Source: Chloroflexota bacterium
Lineage (GTDB): Bacteria > Chloroflexota > Anaerolineae > Anaerolineales > Anaerolineaceae
Length of the DNA stretch: 64,000 bases
Assembly (NCBI GenBank): GCA_016887485.1
Contig: CP069394.1
Coordinates: forward strand, 1,736,001 to 1,800,000
Direction of reading: 5' to 3'
The notes under the pieces were generated by a model. The model saw only the letters and a list, made by a program, of their open reading frames with translations, was not told the origin of the DNA and searched no databases. Both the position numbers and the translations under genes were made by a program. Positions 8,564 through 21,113 of this stretch are shown piece by piece (the stretch's first letter is position 1; the number at the start of each line of letters is the position of its first letter).

Positions 8564-8636
8564 GCCCCCATCGTCTAGCGGCCTAGGACGTGGCCCTCTC
8601 AAGGCCAAAACCGGGATTCGAATTCCCGTGGGGGCA
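8564..8636 (+). tRNA. tRNA-Glu (anticodon CTC)
   Basis: A full cloverleaf can be drawn: acceptor stem GCCCCCA / TGGGGGC, D-arm TCGTCTAGCGGCCTAGGACG in the usual tRNA-Glu form, anticodon stem TGGCC / GGCCA around loop CTCTCAA (anticodon CTC, reading GAG), and T-arm CCGGGATTCGAATTCCCG. CCA is not encoded. The 3' half of this tRNA recurs in broken form at 8834-8886. Confidence 0.93.
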
Positions 8637-8650
8637 CTTTCCTTTTAATT

Positions 8651-8802
8651 TTGTCATTGCGAGGGAGCCGAAGGCGGACGAAGCAATCTCCGAAGCGAAG
8701 GTGGGCGAGAAATAATCCCCCAAGAAAACAAAAAGAGAAGAATATAGATTGCTTCCCACTCCGCTACGCTCCGGGGACAGTGTCGCAAGCTCGCAATGAC
8801 AA
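8651..8802. repeat. 152-bp palindromic (MITE-like) repeat, copy 1
   Basis: The element begins TTGTCATTGCGAG and ends CTCGCAATGACAA, a perfect 13-bp terminal inverted repeat. Inside, GAAGCAATCT near the left is complemented by AGATTGCTTC toward the right, so most of the element can fold into a long imperfect hairpin. It has no convincing coding capacity. The sequence type (GTCATTGCGAG...GAAGCAATCT) resembles non-coding palindromic repeats scattered in several bacterial phyla. Copy 2 at 8900 differs by a single base. Confidence 0.9.
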
Positions 8803-8833
8803 GATGAAGCATCTGTATATCCATTAAGAGTAC

Positions 8834-8886
8834 AGGCCAAAACCGGGATTCGAACGAAATGCCCCTGTCCATTCCCGTGGGGATAC
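8834..8886 (+). pseudogene. Broken copy of the tRNA-Glu 3' half
   Basis: From 8834 the sequence repeats the tRNA-Glu from its anticodon stem (AGGCCAAAACCGGGATTCGAA). It is then interrupted inside the T-loop by 17 extra bases and resumes with TTCCCGTGGGG followed by ATACTTT. It lacks the 5' half and has a disrupted T-arm, so it cannot be a functional tRNA. The similarity continues past the tRNA into the flank before repeat copy 2. The simplest reading is that one segment (tRNA 3' half plus palindromic repeat) was duplicated in tandem. Confidence 0.85.
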
Positions 8887-8899
8887 TTTTTATTTAATC

Positions 8900-9051
8900 T
8901 TGTCATTGCGAAGGAGCCGAAGGCGGACGAAGCAATCTCCGAAGCGAAGGTGGGCGAGAAATAATCCCCCAAGAAAACAAAAAGAGAAGAATATAGATTG
9001 CTTCCCACTCCGCTACGCTCCGGGGACAGTGTCGCAAGCTCGCAATGACAA
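8900..9051. repeat. 152-bp palindromic (MITE-like) repeat, copy 2
   Basis: Identical to copy 1 at 8651 apart from G to A at the 13th base, in the same orientation and 249 bases downstream. It carries the same terminal inverted repeats and internal hairpin. With the intervening tRNA fragment it forms a recent tandem duplication. Confidence 0.9.
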
Positions 9052-9073
9052 GCAGAATAATTAAAATGGAAAA

Positions 9074-16377: not shown

Positions 16378-16599
16378 CTAGAGTTCAGATAATTGTGTAG
16401 CAAATTCTGCCAGGTTATTCGCCCGGATGCTTGAAACACGCTGAACAACATCCGCACCAAGGTTGAAGGCTTCACCACCGAACCCGGAGGAAATGGCCTT
16501 GCCAGGGTTATTTAACAATGCCTTGCGGAAAGAGCCATTGATGACAGCTGCCGTCAATAATCGGCTAAATTCCTGTTGTATATGAAAATTCTTAGTCAT
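16378..16599 (-). CDS. 73-residue leader-like small protein
   Basis: A 73-residue protein with a good ribosome site (AGGAG) before ATG 16599. The pattern F-x-R-L-L-T-A-A-V, then FRKALLNNPGKAISSGFGGEAFNL, then LAEFATQLSEL, resembles helical leader regions of Nif11/NHLP- or Franean1_4349-type peptides (FR-x-x-LL-x-x-P-x-x-A). There is no Cys-rich core and no adjacent modification enzyme, so a standard RiPP precursor is doubtful. It could instead be a signalling or regulatory peptide. It lies 27 bases after the DUF5317 gene in one operon. Existence as a gene is well supported; function is unknown. Confidence 0.65.
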   Translation of the reverse strand: MTKNFHIQQEFSRLLTAAVINGSFRKALLNNPGKAISSGFGGEAFNLGADVVQRVSSIRANNLAEFATQLSEL

Positions 16600-16626
16600 C
16601 GTCAGTTCTCCTGTTGAACGACTGTC

Positions 16627-17193
16627 CTACTTTTTGTCTTCTGAATGATTGTTCTGTAATAAGAGGAAAAACACTCCAGCTGCAACAACGACATCGCCTA
16701 TGCTAAATGCAACCCGATAAGGGATCCATTTGGGAAGGGTCAGGATATCTGAGAGGAACCACAAACGGGTGGTTTCCTTCATCAGGACCATGTCCTTGCT
16801 GAAAGCATGTCTGGCGCCAAGTTGCCAGGTATCCGCCGGTACACCCAATTTGTTGAGGGTATCCGGTGAGATCGGCATCCATCCGCCATTCAGGGCGATC
16901 ACCACCAGGTTCAGGAGAAGTCCCAAACCCAAAATCCATATACCGGGCTGTTTGCGGTTTAGCCAGACAAACACGACCAAGATAAGCTGGGAGGTGATCA
17001 GAATGACAGGAATCCACTGGTCCGGTATCTTATCCCGGGTGCCCGAGATAAAGAAGGCAAGCATCTGTGGCGTTGCGGCGACCAGTATGAGCCAGATGTA
17101 TTTCAGATCAATCGGTTGGTAAGGTTCTTTTCTAAAACTTGCGTTTAACAAACCCGCTGCCAAACCAAGGGCAACGGCAAAGACCAGGATCAT
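16627..17193 (-). CDS. DUF5317 membrane protein
   Basis: A 188-residue protein with about five to six membrane helices. The DUF5317 pattern is visible: an NGGWMPIS motif near the middle, followed after a variable loop by LWFLSDILTLPKWIPYRVAFSIGDVVVAAGVFFLL. I use ATG 17193 because it gives an ATGA overlap with the small peptide gene upstream; an ATG at 17214 would make a 25-base overlap. The family is widespread in Chloroflexota and Firmicutes with no proven role. Its place between two tiny genes suggests a transporter or processing partner for a peptide, which is inference. Confidence 0.8.
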   Translation of the reverse strand: MILVFAVALGLAAGLLNASFRKEPYQPIDLKYIWLILVAATPQMLAFFISGTRDKIPDQWIPVILITSQLILVVFVWLNRKQPGIWILGLGLLLNLVVIALNGGWMPISPDTLNKLGVPADTWQLGARHAFSKDMVLMKETTRLWFLSDILTLPKWIPYRVAFSIGDVVVAAGVFFLLLQNNHSEDKK

Positions 17194-17336
17194 TGCATTC
17201 CGATGCCACCGCATCCATCAGGAGCGCCAGCGGCCAAAACGAACATAACGAGGCTTGCAACAGTGACAACTAAACGGACGGTGCGGGAATCGAAACGGGT
17301 TGCAATAGAGGTGATTTTGCTTGAGAGCTTGGACAT
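17190..17336 (-). CDS. 48-residue membrane-anchored peptide upstream of DUF5317
   Basis: A small gene with a clear ribosome site (AAAGGAA, 5 bases before ATG 17336) and a stop overlapping the DUF5317 start (ATGA). The peptide has a basic N-terminus (MSKLSSKITSIATRFDSRTV), one hydrophobic helix (RLVVTVASLVMFVLAAGAPD) and a short Gly-rich exported tail, GCGGIGMQ. It looks like a secreted or membrane-anchored peptide whose C-terminus could be released. Translational coupling and the ribosome site make it likely real. I know no named family. Confidence 0.65.
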   Translation of the reverse strand: MSKLSSKITSIATRFDSRTVRLVVTVASLVMFVLAAGAPDGCGGIGMQ

Positions 17337-17533
17337 GGTAATTCCTTTCAAAGAATACATCTAGGTTGGTGTTTGGTGAAAGTCACATGGTGTGGTCTTT
17401 CAAATTTCTACTCCATTATTATTGCCGAGTGGCTTCAAACTACTCTGCAAAACAGGCTCAAGTACGCAAATATAACAGGATTGATATACTTTAATCCTGC
17501 ACCAACCTATCAAGTGCCTGTTAGACGCAAAAA

Positions 17534-17559
17534 ACACCGGATAGATACCTATCCGGTGT
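17534..17559 (-). terminator. Intrinsic terminator of the MalT/BTAD regulator gene
   Basis: An 11-bp perfect stem (ACACCGGATAG / CTATCCGGTGT) with a 4-base loop. The A run immediately upstream (17529-17534) gives a T run on the minus strand, 30 bases after the regulator's stop. It separates the regulator transcript from the peptide/DUF5317 operon. Confidence 0.85.
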
Positions 17560-17589: not shown

Positions 17590-20500
17590 CTACTTTTGGA
17601 TCAGTGTTTCATAGAGTTCACGGGTCTGACGGGAGGGCGGCGCGTTGATTTCTTTGACCAAAGCGACCCGGCAGCGCTCATATTGGCGGACGATTGCGGC
17701 CCGATTTCCAGTTGCAGCATGGATCCGCATGGCTAAGCGATGGGCATCTTCTAGGCAGGCATCTTCAGTGAGCGCCTGATAGCAATACCGCAACGCGGTC
17801 TTATATGACTTACGCTCCATATACATATTGGCCAGCCGCATCAGCACATCCAGATACATCTGGTAATAACGCTGTCGGTCGGTGATCGCCCAAATTTCCT
17901 CGATCTCGGAAAGGTAATCCCCTTTATAGCTTTCCACCGCAGTCTTTAAATAATTGATCTTATCCCGCGGATCCTTCGCCTTTTGGGCACGATCAACTGC
18001 GCTGGTGAAGGATTCCACGTCATATTCATAATCCAATGACCAGTTGAACTGGTAATAGTCATCCTGCAATAAAACGCTTTGGCGACCCACGGCGCGCCGG
18101 AGCCGATAGAGCGTATTCTTGAAACGCAGCTTCAATTCGTCAGGCGTCGCATCAGGCCAGAAATACAACCCCACCTGCTCTTTGGTCAGCCCTTCCGGGT
18201 GGGCCAGGAACAGAAAGAACATATCTCGGGAGGTCTGAGTCTGCCAATCGCTGCTGCTCACCAAGCGGCTGTTGATATGCACCTGAGCTTTCCCGAAGCT
18301 TTGAATGATCATCTTCGGTGGAGCGAAGGGCATGATGGTTGCCTGTCGGCGGATCTTGCGCCTGGTGACGGGGAGTTTCTCCTCAAACGAATCCACCCGT
18401 TCCAGGATCCTGGCGTATTGGCGTTTGACCTCATGCTTGCCTTTCACGGCGGTCAGGAGGTCCTTGAATTCACGAGCCTGAATGATCAGAGGCGTGGCAT
18501 AGTTGTTTTCCAACAGAGCAGGCAGTACCTTTTCCAGATAGACCAGGGCCTCATCTTTGTCCTCCTGGGCAGCAAGCCCCAGTGAACAGCTGAATGCTGC
18601 CCGCAAGGCCTCACTCTGGTTGCCCTCCGCCTCAAAATAATCATAAGCTTTCTTAGCAGAAGACAGACCAAGTGCATACTGGTCCTGGCGAAGGTGATAA
18701 ATCGCCAGCTCCAGTTCCAACAGGTTCAGGTTATACGATGATTGACTTTCAAGCGCCTTTTCTTTGGCATTCGCAAAGACCACTTCCGCCTTGGGAAATG
18801 TGCCTGAAATCCGGTTGAGGATTCCTTCAGCCAACGTCAGATAGAAGAGCATAAAGTAATCATTGGTCCGCTTTGCAATAGTCTCAGCTTGTCTATAGAC
18901 ATCTAATGATTCTTCATACGCATCTAAATCTTTATAAAGGTCACCCAAGCTTGTCAAACTCAGAGTTTCAGTTCTTGGAGAATTGCTAATTTTGGAATAT
19001 TCAATTGCTTTTTCAAAATTCGCTGCAGCTTTTTCGAAATCACCGCGTAGTTGTTGAAGAACACCCAAGTTATTTAATAACTCTGCAGTCCAGGACATGT
19101 TGCCGCCTGTACTCCAAATATCCAGCGCCTCCTGATACATCATTTCAGCCCGGACGTAGTCACCCAAGACCTTGTGCATCAGACCGATGTTGAACAAAAC
19201 CTTCGGGACGTTCTGATGGTCGTCATAACTCTCAAACAGTCGGAGGGATTCCTTAAGGATATTGATCGCTTCCTTAACTTCACCCTTATAGTAGAGCGTC
19301 ACCCCAATGTTGCGGAGGGCTTCAGCCTTGATCAGGCCATATTCCGGGAATGCGTCCAGAATCTCAATAGCGTTTCTATTGTCCGCCAGCGATTTTTGAA
19401 GGTCGCCTTGAATCTGCATGGCCACCGCTCTGCGGATCAGGCTCAGAGCCAATACCTCGATATTCGCCGGGTCATTATCTTCCAGAAGGCGATCAATGAC
19501 CTTGGTAAAAAGCTGAATGCCCTGATCCACTTCGCCGCCATTGACCAAAATCGCCGCCTGCAAAGACAGTAACGAAGGACGCGAAGTAGCGATATCCGGT
19601 GGCAGAGCTGCCATCCACTCCTTCAAGGTCAGCAGCTTACCGCCTGTGACCATCGCAGGGCCGGCTTTTTCCACCAGGCTGAGCATCTTATCAACCGCGC
19701 GAACCTGCTTATACAGAATAAAAGCCTGTTCCCAGTCCTGGTGTTCTGCGAAATCATCCGCTAAAGCAATTGTGATCAAGACTGTCTCTTCGGGGCGCTC
19801 TTTGCGCATCCTGACTTGAAGGAAATCCCGGAAGAGATGATGATATCGCAGCCACAGGTCATCCGAATCCCCCACCGGCAGCACAAAGAGGTTCCGAATC
19901 ATCACCTGGTCAATTGACGACTGCCAGGATTCGGTGATTTTCAATGCCTTTCCAATCACCCGCTTACAACGCTGGACATCATATTCCTCAAGAATGGATG
20001 TTCGCAGCAGGAAAAGCTTGATATCTTCCGGCTGCTGCTCAAAGACCTGTTGGGCCATATAGTCATACAGGTTCACACCCGAAACTCTGGCCGTCCTAAT
20101 CCGCTCTCCAATTTCATCTTCCAAGAGCTGCGTGGAGAGCAATAACCCCGTGATCCACCCTTCCGTCTGCTGGGTGATCTCTTCAGCGGATTTATCGGTA
20201 ATGGTAATGTGATAATTTTTCAGGAGCAGTTCCTGAATTTCTTGCGAAGTGAATGATATTTCCTCAAATGACAGACCACCGACCTGATTTCGGGCCACCA
20301 ACAAGGGCATATCCGAAAGGGTCAGCAACCGCCGTGATGAAACCATCAGGTGGACGTTTTCATCCGCTGCCTGGAGGAAGCTGTTGATAAATTGATTCAC
20401 CAACTCCCCATCTTCAACAAGCTGATAGTCATCCAGCATGAAGATGAAGTGCTCTGTGATGTGCTCGTAGATATCATTGGCAATCGTTGAGACGATTGCA

Positions 20501-20898
20501 GGGATATCCAATTGAGATTGGGGGATACTATTCAGTACAGAGAGGGAGTTTTTGCCAAATTCCGGGAAACGAGCCTGAATGGCGGCGATAAAATGCGAAA
20601 TAAATCGGAAGGGGTCCTGATCCAGCGGATCAAGCGTTAACCAACTAATGGGCCATTCGGTATGGGTGGCAAAATCAATCAGTAGGGAGGTCTTGCCATA
20701 GCCAGCGGGCGCAGCAATAATGATCAGTTTGAGGTCAAGCAGGTCATTTAAAATCGATAACAGTCGCTGACGTGTGACGATTTCGTCACGCCGACGCGGA
20801 ATAATTAATTTTGTCCTCGTGATCGGGTATTTACTATCCACAGCCGCCTTCTGCTCTTCTTCCCTGTTGCCGCACCGATAAACAGAAGTCATTTTCAT
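17590..20898 (-). CDS. Large MalT-like ATPase regulator with BTAD (SARP) C-terminus
   Basis: About 1,102 residues. N-terminus: the MalT-type opening ITRTKLIIPRRRDEIVTRQRLL, then a STAND/NB-ARC ATPase with Walker A APAGYGKTSLL near residue 65 and Walker B FMLDDYQLV. The middle (about 360-820) is helical TPR-type repeats (GLIKAEALRNIGVTLYYKGE, TAELLNNLGVLQQLRGDFEK). The C-terminus is not a LuxR helix-turn-helix. It is an OmpR-like winged helix (FLFLAHPEGLTKEQVGLYFW) followed by a bacterial transcriptional activation domain (BTAD). Such proteins are ligand-gated activators; the TPR region senses a small molecule or peptide. Start choice is uncertain (TTG 20922, ATG 20898 or 20892). The target could be the adjacent peptide/DUF5317 operon. 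Confidence 0.85.
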   Translation of the reverse strand: MKMTSVYRCGNREEEQKAAVDSKYPITRTKLIIPRRRDEIVTRQRLLSILNDLLDLKLIIIAAPAGYGKTSLLIDFATHTEWPISWLTLDPLDQDPFRFISHFIAAIQARFPEFGKNSLSVLNSIPQSQLDIPAIVSTIANDIYEHITEHFIFMLDDYQLVEDGELVNQFINSFLQAADENVHLMVSSRRLLTLSDMPLLVARNQVGGLSFEEISFTSQEIQELLLKNYHITITDKSAEEITQQTEGWITGLLLSTQLLEDEIGERIRTARVSGVNLYDYMAQQVFEQQPEDIKLFLLRTSILEEYDVQRCKRVIGKALKITESWQSSIDQVMIRNLFVLPVGDSDDLWLRYHHLFRDFLQVRMRKERPEETVLITIALADDFAEHQDWEQAFILYKQVRAVDKMLSLVEKAGPAMVTGGKLLTLKEWMAALPPDIATSRPSLLSLQAAILVNGGEVDQGIQLFTKVIDRLLEDNDPANIEVLALSLIRRAVAMQIQGDLQKSLADNRNAIEILDAFPEYGLIKAEALRNIGVTLYYKGEVKEAINILKESLRLFESYDDHQNVPKVLFNIGLMHKVLGDYVRAEMMYQEALDIWSTGGNMSWTAELLNNLGVLQQLRGDFEKAAANFEKAIEYSKISNSPRTETLSLTSLGDLYKDLDAYEESLDVYRQAETIAKRTNDYFMLFYLTLAEGILNRISGTFPKAEVVFANAKEKALESQSSYNLNLLELELAIYHLRQDQYALGLSSAKKAYDYFEAEGNQSEALRAAFSCSLGLAAQEDKDEALVYLEKVLPALLENNYATPLIIQAREFKDLLTAVKGKHEVKRQYARILERVDSFEEKLPVTRRKIRRQATIMPFAPPKMIIQSFGKAQVHINSRLVSSSDWQTQTSRDMFFLFLAHPEGLTKEQVGLYFWPDATPDELKLRFKNTLYRLRRAVGRQSVLLQDDYYQFNWSLDYEYDVESFTSAVDRAQKAKDPRDKINYLKTAVESYKGDYLSEIEEIWAITDRQRYYQMYLDVLMRLANMYMERKSYKTALRYCYQALTEDACLEDAHRLAMRIHAATGNRAAIVRQYERCRVALVKEINAPPSRQTRELYETLIQK

Positions 20899-21113
20899 CC
20901 AACAATTGATAATGAATGGCAATCACTCCATGTATTCATTCCAAATCAATATTTGTTAATCTTATCAGACAAAACACATTTTGTGAATAACTCTACTTAT
21001 TCAAGACAAGTAAACCGTATAAACAGCACCTTAATCAAAAATTTTTATTGACATATAATCGATTTAATGCCTTGAAAAATGTATAATAGTGTTTAAGATA
21101 AAGGATTATTCGT

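Follow-up and report, generated by a model that had tools for sequence, protein, structure and literature searches.

The question raised by this locus is what two very small genes and a gene for a DUF5317 membrane protein make together in a window of 64,000 nucleotides (the whole stretch of DNA analyzed) from a member of the Anaerolineaceae. The initial annotation had read them as a three-gene unit of peptide production and export. The genes are real, and the unit drawn in this way is too small, since a regulator gene (17590–20922) and a DNA motif (17436–17459) also belong to it. The upstream regulator, the motif and the tandem-repeat versions of the peptide in relatives, all missed in that annotation, suggest signalling as the purpose of the unit. 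The reading favored here, with somewhat more confidence than doubt, is that the cassette both produces a short peptide and senses it: DUF5317 would cut the precursor at AxG|AP, a signal of about 10 aa would be freed, and the regulator would sense it.

The cassette and its conservation

All genes of the cassette lie on the minus strand. In the order of transcription, the features are as follows.

17590..20922, minus strand: regulator gene; MalT-like NTPase region, TPR repeats and C-terminal BTAD (SARP-type) domain
17534..17559, minus strand: terminator-like hairpin 3' of the regulator gene; 11 pairs, then a T-run
17436..17459, minus strand: proposed operator, 24-bp direct-repeat motif; two 12-bp direct repeats GAGCCTGTTTTG CAGAGTAGTTTG
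17190..17336, minus strand: 48-aa peptide precursor; basic N-terminus, one helix, FVLAAG|APDGCGGIGMQ
16627..17193, minus strand: DUF5317, 188 aa; PF17248 match, five long predicted helices
16378..16599, minus strand: 73-aa Os1348/NHLP-related protein; matches to NF038399 and PF14407, both below cut-off

The three genes of the initial annotation were confirmed at their positions, DUF5317 with 140.7 bits to PF17248 (cut-off 25). Its ATGA overlap was found at 17193–17190 (DUF5317 ATG 17193–17191, peptide-gene TGA 17192–17190), and the ribosome sites that it had noted for both tiny genes are present as Shine-Dalgarno-like GAAAGGA and CAGGAGA. A longer DUF5317 start at 17214 is non-conserved, and the majority of the family begins with M/V-ILL. 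The hairpin at 17534–17559 is weak on its own, since the region has three comparable sites where shuffles average 1.5. The nearest named records among DUF5317 loci were an Anaerolineaceae MAG (85% identity), another Anaerolineaceae MAG and Brevefilum sp. (63–66%). In addition, a YtxH-like gene (PF12732; 15910–16185, minus strand) lies about 190 bp 3' of the 73-aa gene, and comparable genes stand there in several relatives of the genus. Elsewhere in the window (8583–9064), frames with an internal repeat contain LYSSLFVFLGDYFSPTFASEIASSAFGS twice, which is probably a dispersed DNA repeat and not a gene.

DUF5317 was present in 22 of 61 related genomes. The peptide profile matched at E < 1e-9 in 21 of these 22 and in none of the 39 others; in the 22nd (G030), the peptide was found at E 2.5e-3, as four identical 28-aa copies around the Os1348-like (Os-like) gene. 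Weaker profile matches (E 1e-3 to 0.05) in nine of the 39 genomes without DUF5317 lie nearly all within long frames and were counted as chance. A regulator ortholog (E < 1e-150) was detected in 22/22 genomes with DUF5317 and 2/39 without it (G024; a fragment in G001), and a relative of the 73-aa protein (E < 1e-20) in 22/22 and 1/39 (G024), respectively, with weak matches in three more. Codon comparison of near relatives reveals purifying selection on the genes of the peptide (dN 0.115, dS 0.69 against the nearest relative), DUF5317 (dN 0.08, dS 0.63) and the 73-aa protein (dN 0.045, dS 1.10). The peptide gene and the 73-aa gene are real genes, not chance ORFs.

The surroundings of DUF5317 were counted at 67 loci. 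Since the patterns used to find these loci came from the nearest DUF5317s, the counts apply to one DUF5317 subfamily, and only loci with enough flank were included. The peptide was present at 54 of 62 loci, the Os-like protein at 58 of 65 and the regulator at 50 of 57; all four genes occurred together at 44 of 55 testable loci, which bears out the conservation of the small genes beside DUF5317 that the initial annotation had named as its own test. At five of the eight loci missed by the peptide profile, Dehalococcoidia included, a short helix peptide was seen by eye before DUF5317, with tails such as AGAPIPWSGSGGG, AAAPAIWR and AAPVRWG, and L214–L216 lack both the peptide and the Os-like protein. 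The regulator is non-adjacent at seven of 57 loci; G034 (locus L182) and G030 have an ortholog elsewhere in the genome. A conserved four-gene cassette of regulator, peptide, DUF5317 and Os1348-like protein is thus almost certain in Chloroflexota. An HD[IV]GK motif, also possible in other proteins than HD-GYP, follows downstream at 35 of 59 DUF5317 loci, and HD_5 and GAF domains were confirmed in the two such proteins checked; in many relatives the operon is thus followed by an HD-GYP (c-di-GMP type) gene. According to the ORF list of the window, no HD-GYP-type gene lies beside its cassette.

Of 400 genomes sampled evenly across the phylum, 119 contained DUF5317. Among control genomes, DUF5317 matches occurred in Thermus and Thermotoga. 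The peptide profile matched in 15/15 DUF5317 genomes of the same order and in 2/104 outside it (G408, beside DUF5317, and G352); the one match in a genome without DUF5317 (G075) lies within a longer frame. Twenty loci outside the order were inspected by eye, and a short helix peptide with another tail precedes DUF5317 at six of them (L102, L105, L113, L114, L115, L120). The DUF5317 family is broader than the cassette, since loci outside the order show M20-like neighbors and fusions. At L103, L106, L107, L109, L111 and L112, DUF5317 lies directly 3' of an M20-like peptidase gene, named from its sequence, and no small helix peptide is listed before DUF5317 at these six loci. At L116, L117 and L118, it is fused to a C-terminal part that reads as MFS-like (~640–720 aa), behind an overlapping gene of ~465 aa. 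Locus L115 (minus strand) carries two successive DUF5317 genes, each of them immediately preceded by a short helix peptide of its own. In three further stretches (L256:1948-4371, L293:4720-7594, L294:4784-7016), DUF5317 is followed by interleaved copies of peptide and Os-like genes and, at the end, by a conserved gene of ~205 aa with a sequence suggestive of a ParA-type ATPase. A search of plasmids for DUF5317 gave no match.

Peptide precursors and DUF5317

Most of the peptides start with basic residues and continue with a single helix, and their tail follows [AGSTVI][AGS]AP. The tail from AP onward has a median of 10 residues, is often Gly-rich and depends on the lineage; in the window, the AxG|AP motif gives the predicted product APDGCGGIGMQ. 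For the cultured Leptolinea tardivitalis, Ornatilinea apprima and Anaerolinea thermolimosa, the tails predicted are APAATGG, APFCVGGVGG and APEDTGGFYH. The single helix and Gly-rich tail noted in the initial annotation hold, and the Cys to which it also pointed varies among relatives. In 45 of 47 peptides, the part before the helix has a higher net charge than the tail. According to the positive-inside rule, which relates charge to membrane topology, the tail is therefore predicted to lie outside, and the exported tail of the initial annotation fits this topology. Tandem peptide copies were found by profile at some loci (two copies in 7/62, four in 1/62), and three were seen by eye at L198.

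As for relatives without DUF5317, 34 stretches were taken around relatives of the regulator, the Os-like protein or DUF5317. They contained 19 cassettes with regulator and Os-like protein and without DUF5317; L257, which has the same composition (candidate MRRINSRQTIRFTCPPGAPPPGGGGWF), stayed outside the set of 68 cassettes by the E-value limit. PF17248 was absent genome-wide in 20/20 genomes of DUF5317-less cassettes, the 20th being that of L257. In all 19 cassettes, the space between the regulator gene and the Os-like gene holds an ATG ORF that follows, by a loose rule, a ribosome-site-like 4-mer. The encoded peptides are soluble tandem repeats, a short unit, or a helix without AxGAP. Seven of the 19 are tandem repeats, in which no signal sequence was seen:

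L291: xPQASGDISR(R), four times, x = M, A, S, S
L282: [TS]PSDGG[VA]GGR(R), three times
L284: [TS]PADGCTGGR(R), three times
L288: KPGASGGIGGG(Y), four times in each of two genes
L289: [KM]PGASGGFGG, six times
L251: SYPIGGGIGSGP, four times
L252: NQPRGGGIGTGP, four times

Single units without a helix were found in L245 and L246, and other peptides of this group have a helix and no AxGAP, for example, QGPTDGSIGPVR, TKAPSDGGGGPF and INGPSDDPGGFGGG.

By one rule applied to the 68 cassettes, an AxGAP-like motif with a helix was present in 47 of the 49 with DUF5317 and in 0 of the 19 without it; the remaining two of the 49 (L194, L212) have the motif by profile. The Fisher value of this association (6e-15) ignores kinship and includes two pairs of identical rows, the 68 cassettes having 66 distinct regulators. 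In the regulator tree, DUF5317 changes six times, and the AxGAP motif follows in 6/6 independent pairs (sign test p 0.031), with the motif labels of L194 and L212, where no ATG with a ribosome site was found, set by hand from the profile matches.

Some units of the DUF5317-less peptides are also similar to tails of the helix type. The L291 unit SPQASGDISR aligns ungapped with the tail APGATGDIGH of its sister L290, the best of 47 tails; GP[TL]DGSIGPVR of L279 and L280 resembles the L186 tail APVDGGISPH, and KAPSDGGGGPF of L281 the L207 tail APSDGGGISR. Over the 19 rows, unit–tail likeness was compared with regulator identity, using the last 16 residues of each DUF5317-less peptide and, for L253, a candidate chosen by hand from two. 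The mean rank correlation was 0.39 against 0.31 in shuffles (p 0.0008, 5000 permutations), a modest effect in which near-copies such as L279/L280 count twice. The units of L246, L247, L253 and L295 bear only a loose resemblance to the rest. Units and tails share the start [AS]P, which supports a cut at AxG|AP.

Taken with this co-variation, DUF5317 quite probably acts on the AxGAP peptide, and its role would be processing rather than export. Of the production/export unit of the initial annotation, the production part is strongly supported by conservation, and the exporter role of DUF5317 is not supported, since the co-variation points to processing. 3D modeling of DUF5317 in AlphaFold2 (pLDDT 92.9, pTM 0.86) gives five long helices and an ordered stretch, 102–163, before the last of them; by the positive-inside rule, this stretch is predicted to lie outside. 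Residues N102, G104, M106, P107, K133, D149 and D167 are invariant in 57 cassette-type rows. In a broader set of 120 domain rows, G91, N95, M106 and P107 are invariant, D149 is kept in 119/119 and D167 in 118/118, and K133 (57/57 cassette-type rows) in 86/120.

The two invariant Asp, D149 and D167, stand 18 residues apart, similar to the Asp pair of LspA, and the DUF5317 consensus FSxGDxxIxxG is comparable with FNxADxxIxxG of LspA. In the P. aeruginosa LspA chain, the pair is D124 and D143 by our alignment, which we take to be the catalytic residues. Further likenesses are the predicted membrane location with conserved residues outside and the AxG|A site of the peptide, which resembles a Cys-less lipobox; the lipobox of lipoprotein precursors contains Cys. 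The differences are that DUF5317 has extra N-terminal helices and that the genome of the window has a separate true LspA elsewhere. No PF01252 (Peptidase_A8) match was found for the window DUF5317 at E <= 1. Three comparisons of DUF5317 and LspA profiles agreed in giving slight support to the likeness. They scored 27.0 (both Asp paired with the LspA Asp; hhalign probability 9%), 31.6, where 60 shuffles reached 26.9 at most (only the second Asp within the alignment; 25%), and 26.5, where the maximum of 100 shuffles was 23.6 (both Asp paired; 9%). The DUF5317 profile reached a best E of 0.7 against PDB sequences. In structural re-alignment, LspA (5dir_A) was second (Z 5.4, rmsd 3.0, 93 aligned), level with unrelated helical proteins; the end points of 5dir put D167 of DUF5317 on D143 of LspA if the last helix is ungapped. 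With a second DUF5317 model, LspA was not among the chains aligned. Foldseek analysis against solved structures gave other folds for the DUF5317 model (best E 3.3) and for a distant family member (best E 4.4), and LspA was listed for neither. DUF5317 was not filed as an LspA, given the Foldseek matches to other folds and an LspA row that was not repeated with the second model. Kinship of DUF5317 and LspA is weakly supported, and that DUF5317 works like a signal peptidase is held more firmly than that it is an LspA. An aspartyl peptidase is an evenly balanced assignment for this protein.

Among the other explanations, the one that survives best makes DUF5317 a membrane receptor, anchor or exporter of the peptide, with another enzyme cutting, or none. 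It would agree with the weak LspA match and with the DUF5317 genes that other members of the phylum have in the absence of the peptide, some of them in fusion with an MFS-like part; the AxGAP site and the membrane anchoring, however, change with DUF5317 while a similar tail stays, and two invariant Asp lie on the predicted outer side, which makes this explanation unlikely.

The regulator, its DNA motif and the 73-aa protein

In the regulator, the BTAD domain (residues 968–1107) was detected with 63.4 bits, above the cut-off of 22.1, and several TPR models exceeded their cut-offs in the middle of the protein. The MalT model gave 212.9 bits, below its cut-off of 537, and the MalT-like region spans residues 36–571. 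With BTAD, a MalT-like region, TPR and a direct-repeat motif nearby, the regulator is similar to SARP/LAL and MalT-type regulators. The inducers of MalT-type regulators are small molecules; the difference here is that the constant partner is the neighboring peptide gene.

The operators of SARP regulators are direct repeats with an 11-bp period. A direct repeat of about GAGCCTGTTTTG AAGCCTGTTTTG, with a period of 12 bp, was found in cassettes that have DUF5317 as well as in those that lack it, mostly 60–145 bp before the peptide gene. In the window, it starts 123 bp before the peptide start and is the sole match with at most three mismatches to the pattern built from that site (0.03 expected). 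In a first motif test, with the unit read from few loci and a period of 11 bp, the mean score was 14.0, compared with 11.5 for shuffles and 12.0 for the reverse strand. With the 12-bp period, 42 of 68 loci were above the 99th percentile of random pieces of the same locus, and the core [CG]C[CT][GC]TTTTG was present at 35 of 68 loci against 45 of 2720 control pieces, two figures that are not independent, because period and core were settled after viewing the listing of all 68. The 11-bp period was rejected as the poorer fit (10 of 68 over the same percentile). A genome-wide scan found 11 places (4 forward, 7 reverse) against two for a control pattern, one of them that of the cassette itself. 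Of nine others inspected, eight lie inside ORFs of at least 90 aa, and the ninth (L304) has no start within reach; with ten of the 11 places accounted for, the genome has no convincing further motif sites, and no regulon is claimed. Since BTAD regulators bind direct repeats, self-regulation through them is likely. That it senses the peptide tail is probable.

A purely internal circuit, in which the peptide stays within the cell and serves the membrane protein or the regulator as a small regulatory subunit, would accord with the missing signal sequence of the repeat-type precursors. It is disfavored by the helix type, whose short tail is predicted outside, and by the lineage-specific tails and tandem copies, which are known from pheromones (PMC11343458). 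This circuit is rated unlikely, a little below the receptor, anchor or exporter role.

As for the 73-aa protein, it matched NF038399 with 33.8 bits (cut-off 40, E 2.6e-8) and PF14407 with 26.2 bits (cut-off 48), and five of its homologs gave 24.9–34.6 bits with NF038399. It is thus related, below the curated cut-off, to the Os1348/NHLP clan (NF038399) of cluster OS3 of Pseudomonas sp. Os17. The Os-like profile reached a best E of 0.32 against PDB, with nitrile hydratase alpha chains at 0.74–1. A second Os1348-like gene is located elsewhere in the genome of the window (L248:3111-3362, minus strand, equal to G000:C1:2246616-2246831), and the 6.5 kb read around it contain neither regulator nor peptide nor DUF5317; the relatives G003 and G009 also have a second copy.

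These matches, to the NHLP/Os1348 and Frankia_peptide models, and the resemblance of repeat-bearing precursors to multi-core RiPP precursors would suit a RiPP pathway, in which the Os1348-like protein would help, as a detached leader or as a partner, in modifying the Gly-rich peptide. In the Os17 cluster, modifying genes, namely, a SagB-type dehydrogenase and others, are predicted (PMC7726476). Beside the cassette, however, no such gene was recognized. Clustering of 67 loci gave the cassette genes and the HD-GYP-type gene as frequent close neighbors and no recognized modifying enzyme, the clusters present in 5–8 loci each being identified in part; around the repeat-type cassettes, about 8 kb were read. 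The initial annotation had compared the 73-aa product to a RiPP leader; a role as the leader of this peptide is not supported, since it is a separate protein kept beside peptides of quite different build. A RiPP pathway is improbable. Still marginally less probable is that the peptide is a small membrane-active toxin or bacteriocin and DUF5317 its immunity or exporter protein, an idea which the short hydrophobic peptide, its tandem copies, the adjoining multi-pass membrane protein and the translational overlap might suggest, and against which stand the peptide genes kept in DUF5317-less relatives (7/19 as soluble repeats unlike a membrane toxin), the regulator as the constant partner and the many invariant polar residues of DUF5317.

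A possible peptide signal of Chloroflexota

According to the favored reading, in which the cassette makes and senses its own peptide, the precursor would be inserted in the membrane, the basic N-terminus inside and the Gly-rich tail outside, as charge and hydrophobicity indicate. DUF5317, with its conserved residues predicted outside near the membrane, would cut at AxG|AP, as the observed co-variation suggests, and free a tail about 10 residues long, which in the window would be APDGCGGIGMQ. The free peptide may be taken up by the same or a neighboring cell and bind the TPR region of the regulator. The regulator would then bind the observed 12-bp direct repeats 5' of the peptide gene and raise expression of the peptide/DUF5317/Os1348-like operon. 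In lineages without DUF5317, the peptide would be made as soluble units, often in tandem repeats, for which its cut is not needed. Passage of the signal between cells is put forward tentatively, with doubt slightly prevailing.

In the Rgg/SHP and leaderless (LCP) systems of Bacillota, members of the RRNPP(A) family, a small peptide gene lies beside a TPR regulator; the SHP precursor is short, hydrophobic and matured by the membrane peptidase Eep, some SHPs end in GG, and leaderless variants exist (PMC13361665, PMC9765709). Several pheromones in one precursor are also known (PMC11343458). The cassette precursor, membrane-anchored or leaderless and with several units per precursor, is similar to those of Rgg/SHP and leaderless systems. 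In most cassettes, a regulator with TPR repeats adjoins a small propeptide gene, as in RRNPP(A). An RRNPP(A) receptor consists of an HTH, if any, followed by TPR, without an NTPase, whereas the cassette regulator has a MalT-like NTPase region, TPR and BTAD. In addition, the proposed peptidase is DUF5317 and not Eep, the cassette adds the Os1348-like protein and often HD-GYP, and the host belongs to Chloroflexota. Since its parts differ, the cassette is not a member of RRNPP, though the logic is alike.

"Chloroflex" is unmentioned in the main texts of PMC9765709, PMC10075063 and PMC13361665. The literature search found no paper naming DUF5317, and the matches listed contained nothing on peptide signalling in Chloroflexota. 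It is conceivable, at just under an even chance, that the cassette is a pheromone system native to Chloroflexota and built from non-RRNPP parts. These would be an NTPase-TPR-BTAD receptor, DUF5317 as a new membrane aspartyl peptidase that cuts a lipobox-like site lacking Cys, and a precursor in either of two interchangeable designs that deliver similar decapeptides: anchored in the membrane with a single tail, or leaderless and built of tandem repeats, in some cases with dibasic joints.

Chloroflexota are common in digesters and sediments. If the proposed reading is true, they would gain a peptide signalling system of their own, a function would be offered for DUF5317, and the cassette would exemplify a change of precursor in which the signal is retained. 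Short as they are, the predicted peptides can be purchased for tests with cultured isolates.
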